Part shown: piece after piece, positions 3,921-16,898 of the stretch
Numbering within the stretch: position 1 is the first letter of the stretch
Layout: each line of letters starts with the position of its first letter
NCBI GenBank assembly: GCA_913049845.1
Contig: CAJWZE010000011.1
Location: 1-38,767, forward strand
DNA: 38,767 nucleotides
Direction: 5' to 3'
Source of the DNA: an uncultured Cryomorphaceae bacterium
Lineage (GTDB): Bacteria; Bacteroidota; Bacteroidia; Flavobacteriales; Schleiferiaceae
Translations under genes and position numbers: made by a program
The notes under the pieces: model-generated
Databases searched by the model: none
What the model was told of the DNA's origin: nothing
Seen by the model: the letters and a program-made list of their open reading frames with translations, nothing else

Positions 3921-3931
3921 TTGTTAATAAC
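3921..3931 (+). promoter_or_regulatory. TTGTTAATAAC motif upstream of nrdB
   Basis: The 11-base motif lies 185 bp before nrdB and 26 bases before a candidate -33 TTG. The same 11-mer occurs upstream of the NrdA-tail-like small gene (16847-16837, minus). Its reverse complement contains TTATTAACA, which resembles a DnaA box (TTATNCACA) with one informative mismatch. Regulatory function is inferred. Confidence 0.4.
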
Positions 3932-4116: not shown

Positions 4117-5097
4117 ATGCAACAGGAACCAATTTTACAAGACAACAAAAACAGGTTTGTCATTTTCCCAATCCAGCACAGTGATATTTGGGATTGGTAC
4201 AAGAAGCAAGAGGCGTCATTTTGGACAGCGGAGGAAATCGATTTGCACCAAGATGTTGTAGACTGGAAAAAGCTCAACGATGACGAGCGCTATTTTCTTA
4301 AGCACATTTTGGCATTCTTCGCAGCTTCAGACGGTATCGTAAATGAAAACCTAGCTGAGAATTTCGTCAATGAAGTACAATACTCAGAGGCAAAATTCTT
4401 TTATGGTTTCCAGATTATGATGGAAAACATTCACAGCGAAATGTATTCGCTACTCATTGACACACTTGTGGATAATGATGCGGAAAAAGATGAGTTATTC
4501 AATGCGATCGAGCGATTTCCTGCCATCAAGAAAAAGGCAGATTGGGCATTGCGTTGGATTGAATCTGAATCATTCGCTGAGCGTTTGATTGCTTTTGCAG
4601 CCGTAGAGGGTATTTTCTTCTCAGGAGCATTCTGTTCCATTTTCTGGATGAAGAAAAGAGGTCTATTGCCAGGATTGGCTACTTCGAACGAGTTCATTTC
4701 TCGCGACGAAGGCTTGCACCGTGATTTCGCTTGCCACTTGCACAACAACCACCTGGTGAACAAAGTACCGGTAGAGCGCATCACTCAAATCATTTCAGAG
4801 GCATTGGATATTGAGCGCGAATTCATCACGGAATCACTGCCTGTGAACCTGATTGGAATGAATGCCAAATTAATGTCTGAATACCTAGAATTCGTGACCG
4901 ACCACTTGCTAGAGACACTAAACTGTCCTAAAATGTACGGAACAGCGAATCCATTTGACTTTATGGACATGATTTCCTTAGAAGGAAAAACAAATTTCTT
5001 CGAGAAACGTGTTTCAGAATATAAAAAAGCAGGAGTTGGTGAAAGCCAAGAAGATCACAACTTCGACAAAGCTTTTGGTGGCGATATGAGCTTCTAA
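4117..5097 (+). CDS. nrdB: Class I ribonucleotide reductase, beta subunit (NrdB/R2)
   Basis: The 326-residue radical-generating subunit of class I ribonucleoside-diphosphate reductase. It houses the di-metal site and delivers the radical to NrdA for dNTP synthesis. Metal ligands are visible in family order: Asp42 (FWTAEEID), Glu103 and His106 (ENIHSEMY), Glu163 (AVEGIFFSG), and Glu197 and His200 (RDEGLHRDF). Tyr110, four residues after His106, is the expected radical tyrosine, so this looks like a tyrosyl-radical type. The C-terminal tail [11 protein letters not shown] is the likely NrdA-docking peptide. It precedes nrdA by 37 bp, the reverse of the E. coli order. The size resembles eukaryotic-like R2 proteins. 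Confidence 0.97.
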
Positions 5098-5134: not shown

Positions 5135-7624
5135 ATGATGCGCGTACTTAAAAGAGACGGAAGAAAGGAGGCGGTAAAGTTTGATAAGATTACTGCACGT
5201 ATTGAGAAACTGTGTTACGGATTGAGCGAATATGTCGATCCAGTAGCAGTAGCAAAACGTGTAGTGGACGGTGTTTATGACGGCGTAACTACCTCTGAGT
5301 TGGATAATTTGGCTGCGGAAACTGCTGCGTCAATGACTATCAAACATCCGGACTACGCTAATCTTGCTGCGAGAATAGCTGTTAGCAACTTACATAAAAG
5401 CACTAAAAAGAGTTTCTCAGAAACAGTTACGGATTTGTACGAATACATCAACCCTGAAACGGGTCAGAAAGCACCTTTGATTGCCGACGATGTGTATGAG
5501 ATTGTTCAAGCGAATGCAGAATATTTGGATTCGCAACTGATTTATGATCGCGACTTCTCTTATGACTATTTTGGGTTTAAGACTCTAGAGCGTTCTTACT
5601 TGCTACGTATGCACGGGAAGATTGTAGAGCGTCCTCAGCAAATGTTGATGCGTGTAAGTATTGGTATTCACAAAGACGACCTCGAGGGTGCTTTAGAGAC
5701 CTATGAGTTGATGAGTAAGAAGTACATGACTCATGCAACACCGACGTTGTTCAATGCCGGTACACCAAAGCCTCAGATGAGTTCTTGTTTTCTTCTTACT
5801 ATGAAGGAAGATAGTATTGATGGAATTTACGATACCTTGAAGCAAACAGCTAAGATTTCGCAGAGCGCAGGTGGTATTGGTCTTAGCATTCATAATGTAC
5901 GTGCAACAGGCTCATACATTGGCGGTACCAATGGGACTTCGAACGGCATTGTTCCAATGCTTCGTGTGTACAATGATACTGCGCGTTATGTGGATCAAGG
6001 TGGCGGAAAGCGTAAAGGTTCATTCGCCATTTACGTAGAGCCGTGGCACGCTGATATTTACGAGTTCTTGGATTTGAAGAAGAACCATGGTAAAGAGGAA
6101 ATGCGTGCACGCGATCTGTTCTATGCCATGTGGATTCCAGATTTATTTATGGAGCGCGTTGAGAAAAATGAAGATTGGACACTCATGTGTCCAAACGAAT
6201 GTCCAGGCTTGTTCGATTGTCACGGTCAAGAGTTTGTTGACCTATACACCGAATACGAAAGTGAAGGAAAAGGTCGTCGTACCGTTAAAGCTCGTGAGGT
6301 CTGGGCAAAAATTATGGAAAGCCAGATTGAAACTGGAACCCCTTATATGCTTTATAAGGATGCAGCGAATTTAAAATCGAACCAGCAGAACCTTGGTACT
6401 ATCCGTTCATCAAACCTGTGTACTGAGATCCTAGAATACACGTCACCGGATGAGATTGCAGTGTGTAATCTAGCGTCTATTGCGCTTCCAATGTTTGTGG
6501 AAGACGGCAAGTTTGATCATCAGAAATTGTACGACGTAACCTACAAGGTAACGTACAACTTGAACCAAGTGATTGACCGTAATTATTACCCGGTAGTTGA
6601 AGCACGGAACTCAAATATGCGTCACCGTCCTGTGGGCTTGGGTGTTCAAGGGTTGGCTGATACGTTCATCAAGCTGCGCATGCCGTTCGACTCAGAAGAG
6701 GCAAAAGCATTGAATAAAGAAATCTTTGAAACCATGTACTTTGCTGCGGTAAGCTCTTCTAAGGACCAAGCTTCGAAGGATGGGGCTTATGAAACTTATG
6801 AAGGATCACCTATCTCTAAAGGTCAGTTCCAGCATAACCTTTGGGGCATTAAAGACAAGGAGCTAAGCGGTCGTTGGGACTGGAAAGAACTTCGTGAGGA
6901 AGTCGAAAAGTACGGTGTTAGAAACAGTTTATTGATGGCGCCAATGCCGACGGCATCGACCTCACAGATCCTTGGAAACAACGAATGCTTCGAGCCGTAC
7001 ACGTCGAATGTTTACACACGTCGTGTGCTGTCGGGTGAGTTTATCGTAGTGAATAAGCATTTATTGCATGATTTGATTGAATTAGGTCTTTGGAACGACG
7101 ATATGAAGAATGCATTGATGGCGACGAACGGTTCGGTACAGAATATTGAGGGTGTGCCAGATAATTTGAAAGCCATTTATAAGACAGTTTGGGAAATATC
7201 TATGAGAGATATTCTTGATATGGCGGCAGATCGCGGTATGTTTATCGATCAGAGTCAGAGTCTAAACCTCTTTATGGAAAGTCCAAATATGGGTAAGCTC
7301 ACTTCGATGCACTTTTATGCTTGGAAGAAAGGTCTGAAAACAGGGATGTATTATTTGCGTTCTAAACCAGCTACAAGCGCAATTAAGTTTACTGTGAAGA
7401 AGAATGCTCAAACAGATTTGAGTACTGTTGTTAGTTCAGACGCTCGCTCAGATACTACTGATACGGTTCCGGCAACTTCAGCGGAGCCAACAGCAGAAGA
7501 GGTTGAAGCACGTGTTAAAGCACAAAAGGAAGCTATGGCTAAGATGAGTGAAGAAGTCACTGCAGAAGAAAAAATTGCTTGTTCAATTGATAATCCGGAC
7601 GAATGTGTGGCCTGTGGGTCCTAA
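5135..7624 (+). CDS. nrdA: Class I ribonucleotide reductase, alpha subunit (NrdA/R1)
   Basis: The 829-residue catalytic subunit, reducing NDPs to dNDPs. An N-terminal ATP-cone (residues 1 to about 95, starting [16 protein letters not shown]) gives allosteric activity control. Active-site residues are Cys218 (MSSCFLL), Asn427-Cys429-Glu431 (NLCTE) and Cys444 (AVCNLAS). The radical-transfer tyrosines are probably in [12 protein letters not shown] Thr/Ala/Glu-rich linker from about residue 770 leads to the mobile redox tail [15 protein letters not shown], where Cys824 and Cys827 re-reduce the active-site disulfide. Two ATGs stand in tandem (5135, 5138); either could be used. It is followed by a strong terminator. 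The tail is nearly duplicated in a separate small gene at 16640-16762. Confidence 0.97.
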
Positions 7625-16582: not shown

Positions 16583-16618
16583 AAAACCCCCGGTTCAAGC
16601 AGCGAACCGGGGGTTTTT
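16583..16618. terminator. Strong bidirectional terminator
   Basis: AAAACCCCCGGTTC (16583-16596) pairs perfectly with GAACCGGGGGTTTT (16604-16617) over a 7-base loop, with T on the plus side and T (plus-strand A) on the minus side. On the minus strand it lies 22 bases after the stop of the NrdA-tail-like gene. Confidence 0.92.
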
Positions 16619-16639: not shown

Positions 16640-16762
16640 TTAGCTCCCGCATGCTTCACATTCTGGGTTATCAATGCTGCAGGCTTTGGGTTGCTCTGCT
16701 TGCTCTAATTCTTGAACGAAGCTTGCGAAAGAATCGTCCATTCCGAAATCGTTAGTATTCAT
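16640..16762 (-). CDS. 40-residue protein carrying an NrdA-like redox tail
   Basis: An ATG-to-TAA frame of 41 codons on the minus strand. The product starts MNTNDFGMDDSFASF, continues with a Gln/Glu-rich helix-like stretch (residues 16-25) and ends ACSIDNPECEACGS (27-40). That end matches the C-terminus of the NrdA in this window, [15 protein letters not shown], with one residue missing and one substitution, and both end exactly at Gly-Ser-stop. Cys35 and Cys38 correspond to the shuttle cysteines of NrdA. The two DNA segments differ at 8 of 13 shared codons, so similarity is held at protein level. It has a candidate promoter (16820-16791), a terminator, and shares TTGTTAATAAC with the nrdB upstream region. 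The family is unknown to me; an RNR-associated redox or regulatory peptide is inferred. Confidence 0.8.
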   Translation of the reverse strand: MNTNDFGMDDSFASFVQELEQAEQPKACSIDNPECEACGS

Positions 16763-16790: not shown

Positions 16791-16820
16791 CTAAACTACC
16801 AAATCGATTTACAGATTCAA
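16791..16820 (-). promoter_or_regulatory. Candidate promoter of the NrdA-tail-like gene
   Basis: On the minus strand, TTG (16820-16818), a 19-base spacer and TAGTTTAG (16798-16791, one mismatch to TAnnTTTG) precede the ATG at 16762 by 28 bases. A perfect AAGGAGGTC (16830-16822) lies just upstream of the -33 element, too far from the ATG (60 bases) to act as its ribosome-binding site. Confidence 0.4.
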
Positions 16821-16836: not shown

Positions 16837-16847
16837 GTTATTAACAA
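16837..16847 (-). promoter_or_regulatory. TTGTTAATAAC motif upstream of the NrdA-tail-like gene
   Basis: Identical to the 11-mer at 3921-3931 upstream of nrdB, and in the same orientation relative to the gene. It ends 16 bases before the candidate -33 TTG; the nrdB copy ends 26 bases before its candidate, a difference of about one helical turn. Regulatory role is inferred. Confidence 0.4.
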
Positions 16848-16870
16848 TTTCATTTTTTGATTTTGTGGGA

Positions 16871-16898
16871 GTTAGTCATTAAATTTTTAATAACTCAC
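16871..16898. repeat. Imperfect inverted repeat between divergent genes
   Basis: GTTAGTCATTAAA (16871-16883) and TTTAATAACTCAC (16886-16898) pair at 11 of 13 positions around a 2-base centre. It lies in the 196-bp gap between the small minus-strand gene and the glucosaminidase gene and could be an operator for either. Confidence 0.4.

Follow-up and report, generated by a model that had tools for sequence, protein, structure and literature searches.

A 40-codon gene of an uncultured Cryomorphaceae bacterium (Flavobacteriales) probably encodes a detached redox tail that would act in trans on class I ribonucleotide reductase (RNR), re-reducing the active site of its catalytic subunit NrdA. The gene lies on the minus strand of a contig of 38,767 nucleotides (CAJWZE010000011.1; this whole stretch is called the window below), about 9 kb from nrdA (Table 1). 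The C-terminal CxxC motif of NrdA enters the active site and re-reduces it, and is itself recharged by thioredoxin or glutaredoxin. The small gene places such a cysteine pair on a separate polypeptide. Its ATG-TAA frame encodes MNTNDFGMDDSFASFVQELEQAEQPKACSIDNPECEACGS, in which C35 and C38 form the redox pair and Gly-Ser immediately precedes the stop. An earlier note on this DNA had drawn attention to the frame and to its NrdA-like ending, and both observations were borne out by reading the two sequences and by a search of the genome. The whole-genome search found the tail in two places only, the small gene and the end of NrdA, which are 61% identical across 29 residues.

The same note had regarded the small protein as a copy of the NrdA redox tail. 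This is correct for the tail itself, but the tail is one residue shorter than that of the organism's own NrdA (NPE-CEAC versus NPDE-CVAC), and the N-terminal half of the protein (DDSFASFVQELEQAEQP) has no counterpart in the window NrdA. Judged from this comparison, the 40-mer combines a tail with a short leader of its own and is not simply an NrdA copy. It matches the 965-position NrdA model PRK07207 of NCBIfam weakly (E = 0.0027) and at positions 940-964; Pfam gave no match for it, whether to the barrel domain PF02867, to PF00317 or to the ATP-cone, all three of which are found in NrdA. What the 40-mer does possess is the C-terminal CxxC redox tail of class I NrdA. AlphaFold2 models it as one helix (residues 5-21) followed by an unstructured tail, with a mean predicted local distance difference test score of 71 and a predicted template modelling score of 0.32; the model has no thioredoxin fold that would place the protein among thioredoxins or glutaredoxins.

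Conservation and genomic setting of the small gene

The same 40-codon frame was found in 17 genomes of the genus, the window genome included, out of 25 searched, and its products are 88-100% identical. The same-genus contigs are titled variously as Flavobacteriales, Cryomorphaceae or Schleiferiaceae metagenome-assembled genomes. Stops in relatives had been named as a possible weakness of the prediction, yet all 17 copies are intact. Changes between them are nearly all synonymous, with a mean nonsynonymous rate (dN) of 0.04, a mean synonymous rate (dS) of 1.4 and a ratio of about 0.03; between distant pairs dS is close to saturation. Because the frame is so similar in 17 genomes and changes almost exclusively at synonymous sites, it is not a chance open reading frame (ORF); by this pattern of substitution, the small tail gene is real and under strong purifying selection. 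It was not found in the other eight genus genomes, in which the nrdA contig follows the gene order of the window for as far as it extends and ends before the place of the gene. True absence from part of the genus is therefore not supported, as all eight assemblies stop short of the syntenic place. We also discarded weak order-wide matches at profile positions 11-29; those that were read come from similar short frames found in many genomes, lack the tail and resemble shadow frames of a conserved gene.

The gene is equipped with what look like regulatory signals of its own. An element, TTGTTAATAAC, stands 85-87 nt upstream of the ATG in all 17 carriers (15 exact, two with one base off), and the same element precedes nrdB. 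It is rare, having seven sites in the 1.79-Mb window genome, others of which lie upstream of genes named from their sequences as dnaN, HU and glmM, among others; across the genus it also precedes genes for ribosomal proteins, ATP synthase and a serC-like protein. Since the genes it precedes are so varied, the element is a mark of growth genes, nrdBA among them, and not of RNR in particular; an undescribed regulator linked to growth may act at this site. Genus genomes have 2-9 sites each, mostly 5' of growth genes (loci L292-L334). Upstream of the tail gene, an imperfect inverted repeat with 17-nt arms 24 nt apart occupies 16837-16894 and has TTGTTAATAAC at one end. The TAGTTTAG box nearer the gene resembles the Bacteroidota -7 box, TAnnTTTG. 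Directly behind the stop codon, a terminator hairpin is found in 16 of the 17 genus genomes, with stem sequences that differ and pairing that is kept; the sequence of the 17th (L003) gives way to Ns.

Table 1. Features of the window that bear on the free tail gene
Feature	Position	Strand	Remarks
Free tail gene, 40 residues	16640..16762	minus	Leader (residues 1-26) and NrdA-type redox tail ACSIDNPECEACGS; kept in 17 genomes of the genus (dN/dS about 0.03)
nrdB, RNR radical subunit	4117..5097	plus	Identified by its sequence and its place next to nrdA
nrdA, class I RNR catalytic subunit	5135..7624	plus	Own attached tail (7577-7621); matches PF02867, PF00317 and the ATP-cone
TTGTTAATAAC element, tail gene	16837..16847	minus	85 nt before the ATG
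TTGTTAATAAC element, nrdB	3921..3931	plus	Found before nrdB in each of the 17 genus stretches read
TAGTTTAG box	16791..16798	minus	TAG(T/C)TTAG-like sequence kept in most genus upstream regions
Intrinsic terminator	16583..16617	minus	Directly after the tail-gene stop; palindromic, usable from both strands

These features bear on the possibility that the frame is a non-functional, untranslated relic or scar of nrdA, left by duplication at an integration site or as a fragment. Many broken copies of a related tail repeat do occur in small Cyclobacteriaceae genomes. In the genus, however, the intact frames, the nearly exclusive synonymous change, the upstream element at a fixed distance and the terminator are not those of a relic, nor is a gene on the strand opposite nrdA whose leader is not derived from nrdA. 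For the window, we rejected an integration-site scar on the grounds of strand, unrelated leader and strong selection on the frame, and we consider a relic of any kind very improbable.

Free tails in megaplasmids, other bacteria and phages

Four Pseudomonas megaplasmids provide the strongest evidence, although still correlative, that NrdA can be served in trans by a free tail: pBASL58 of Pseudomonas sp. Leaf58, which was isolated from the Arabidopsis phyllosphere, and those of FeN3W, P. silesiensis (pPL1) and P. amygdali (pMPPla107). Their NrdA (L092, L093, L335, L336) is tail-less. It stops at ...TTGKLNAVSA or a close variant, where the homologue from a P. aeruginosa megaplasmid continues into the tail. 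On all four, a separate gene of 48-58 codons, roughly 108 to 141 kb from nrdA, ends in the tail (L061, L060, L338, L118), and this free tail appears to be the only one that they encode. On the P. aeruginosa megaplasmid, the attached tail alone was found. Thus, in contrast to the pairing described in the earlier note, the peptide does not always accompany an NrdA whose tail is intact. Where annotated, the megaplasmid tail copies are labelled hypothetical. Acinetobacter proteins that are also labelled hypothetical and contain the tail were set aside: the single example read proved to be an NrdA interrupted by ISAba1, and another plasmid has an ordinary NrdA.

Homologues of the free tail extend well beyond close strains. 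A scan of 84,980 species genomes retrieved stand-alone tails in two Flavobacteriales groups (the window genus and one other family, which has a longer leader), as well as short frames from genomes of the Cyclobacteriaceae type and some ends of ordinary NrdA. In the second family, a gene named from its sequence as CTP-synthase-like follows the tail gene on the same strand, immediately in two of the four loci read and after one intervening gene in the other two. Small Cyclobacteriaceae genomes (G402, G403, G785, G887; L152-L165) contain many, mostly broken copies of a repeat encoding GSC(S/D)IDDPECEACGS; an intact gene is found in G403, and a close relative in phage loci L401-L406.

The largest set of relatives is viral, from marine phages, and the earlier suspicion that related copies had been overlooked proved well founded. 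In IMG/VR, 223 stretches encode relatives, and all 80 loci kept are stand-alone; a further query added more tail types. In all, 103 viral loci with phage-type neighbours yield 46 distinct proteins, 32-42 residues long under the start rule applied; there are also some types with longer leaders. Of these proteins, 24 end in CSIDNPECEACGS and 10 in CSIDNPDCEACGS. The last 13 residues, including C28, are nearly invariant, whereas the leader and the gene neighbourhood vary, and in one phage group dN/dS is about 0.07. Such a constant tail in changing phage settings suggests a host-directed role. Being phage-carried and alike to a host metabolic gene, the free tails of the 103 loci are candidate phage auxiliary metabolic genes.

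The NrdA barrel was found in none of the 25 viral records searched, which may be fragments, so the question posed in the earlier note, whether the peptide is found only with nrdAB, is answered in the negative. It follows that a phage peptide, if it acts on RNR, must act on the host enzyme. Four queries found no stand-alone tail in cultured phages. PHROGs and Pfam gave no convincing match for the free-tail proteins; PHROG family 21949, considered as a named home, matched with E = 0.054 and received no support when searched. As to neighbouring genes, the phage gene just 5' of the free tail in L390 (7553-7873) appears by eye to encode a secreted thioredoxin-fold-like protein without CxxC. In some phages, a gene that looks GroES-like by eye lies near the free tail, before large structural or packaging genes (L389 8349-8993, L393 3478-4041, L396 8135-8698).

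Proposed function and alternatives

In the function that we favour, each turnover would leave a disulfide in the NrdA active site; C35 and C38 of the free peptide would enter the site, accept the disulfide and depart, and thioredoxin or glutaredoxin would then re-reduce the departed peptide. The short leader helix may dock this diffusible peptide on NrdA. Phages would carry it so that the host enzyme produces more, and the marine Flavobacteriales genus would keep its gene on the chromosome, behind a rare promoter element that nrdBA also has. A stand-alone tail acting in trans, as proposed in the earlier note, fits everything found and receives strong indirect support from the tail-less megaplasmid NrdA; among the forms that the note offered, a reductant shuttle, a decoy and a redox gauge, sequence cannot discriminate. 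The broader proposition is that phages widely encode undescribed micro-proteins of 32-42 residues consisting of little beyond the redox tail of host RNR, that these serve as a diffusible reductant raising deoxynucleoside triphosphate (dNTP) supply, that the same device is chromosomal in marine Bacteroidota and that a parallel split took place in Pseudomonas megaplasmids. Taken as a whole, we regard this proposition as evenly poised.

The attached tails provide a further hint. Of the NrdA tails from other genera of the window's family, 38 of 46 read CEAC. In the carrier clades the attached tail has departed from this motif, which is present in one of 24 in the window genus (a count that excludes two misread frames) and none of six in the second family, while the free tail in both cellular groups retains it. 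Part of the work of the attached tail may, on this hint, have passed to the free one, although the comparison involves few independent clades, a biased sample and tails found with a tail-shaped query. By comparison with other genera of the family, the attached tail is unusually variable within the genus (CVAC, CVSC, CIAC, CDSC, CVLC, CASC, CSSC and CTSC; L166-L191).

Besides the limits of this comparison, several observations weigh against a trans-acting tail. Carrier NrdA retains an attached CxxC tail, which makes the need for a free one less than obvious. The case for an RNR-specific regulon is weakened by the occurrence of TTGTTAATAAC before other growth genes, and in the second carrier family the element is absent at nrdB. 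In phages, most copies sit in lysis cassettes and not next to nucleotide genes; in 65 of 80 loci, a gene for an endolysin, holin or amidase is found within four ORFs. Finally, binding to NrdA, electron transfer, the benefit to phages and the direction of gene flow between phages and cells are all inferred. A second, tail-less RNR that might serve as a partner in the window genome was sought and rejected, for there is a single PF02867 gene there; extra partial PF02867 matches occur in a few genus assemblies only.

The main rival is that the peptide is a decoy or inhibitor, sitting in the active-site cleft of NrdA or on the face by which thioredoxin or glutaredoxin docks, blocking re-reduction and thereby lowering or redirecting dNTP synthesis; in phages this would be a means of host takeover and in cells a co-expressed brake. 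The lack of NrdA in the phage records searched suits this idea, as does the finding that the C-terminal domain of a fungal RNR large subunit, when detached, enters a complex with yeast Rnr1p and has harmful effects in trans (PMC3618301). On the other hand, the sole tail found for NrdA of the four megaplasmids is the free one, which fits supply, not inhibition, and a pure blocker would not need the two CxxC cysteines that are kept in every member read. We view a decoy as unlikely.

Less likely still is a thioredoxin-linked peptide that has some other client protein or acts as a redox reporter, for example in timing phage lysis. The frequent lysis cassettes and the thioredoxin-fold-like neighbour in L390 would be in keeping with it; other phage copies, however, lie among head or other structural genes. 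Moreover, conservation covers the whole NrdA tail and not just CxxC, and the peptides end as the local NrdA does, with GS in those of Bacteroidota type and with Q or T in those of Pseudomonas, while the cellular gene has TTGTTAATAAC in common with nrdB. A redox tail for class I RNR remains our preferred interpretation.

Comparison with known systems

Phages carry nrdA and nrdB as auxiliary metabolic genes. The proposed benefit, extra dNTP during infection, would be the same for the free tail, but those genes supply whole enzymes and here there is the tail alone. If the proposal is true, free tails are among the smallest known phage metabolic helper genes and use one borrowed peptide to act on an essential enzyme; re-reduction of class I RNR would then be separable from the enzyme in natural systems and able to affect the supply of DNA precursors. 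Such proteins are easily missed by annotation, and the megaplasmid pairs of NrdA and tail offer a ready test system.

The openly licensed literature searched yielded no account of a class I tail that stands alone. The attached tail of class I NrdA (PRK07207) has near-identical last 13 residues, with the first Cys and the CxxC, but the 40-mer lacks the ATP-cone, all-alpha and barrel domains and has its own start codon and leader. A detached C-terminus of an RNR large subunit acting in trans on an RNR large subunit is known from the incompatibility domain of Neurospora UN-24 (PMC3618301); that domain is eukaryotic, 135 residues long, harmful and in nature part of a full-length gene.

The closest precedent is the class II split RNR of Pseudomonas aeruginosa, NrdJa/NrdJb, for which a trans-acting tail is established and both parts are needed in the cell (PMC4520616). 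Here, too, redox cysteines reside on a separate protein that would work in trans on the catalytic subunit. Unlike NrdJb, the free tails belong to class I, have 32-58 residues and no predicted domain, and are encoded apart from their putative partner. In the window this partner keeps its own CxxC tail; a partner without one, as for NrdJb, was found solely in the four Pseudomonas megaplasmids. Because NrdJb already does for class II what we propose for class I, the principle of a split tail is known, and the class I free tail is best placed as a variant of that principle, apparently new for its class but not categorically new.
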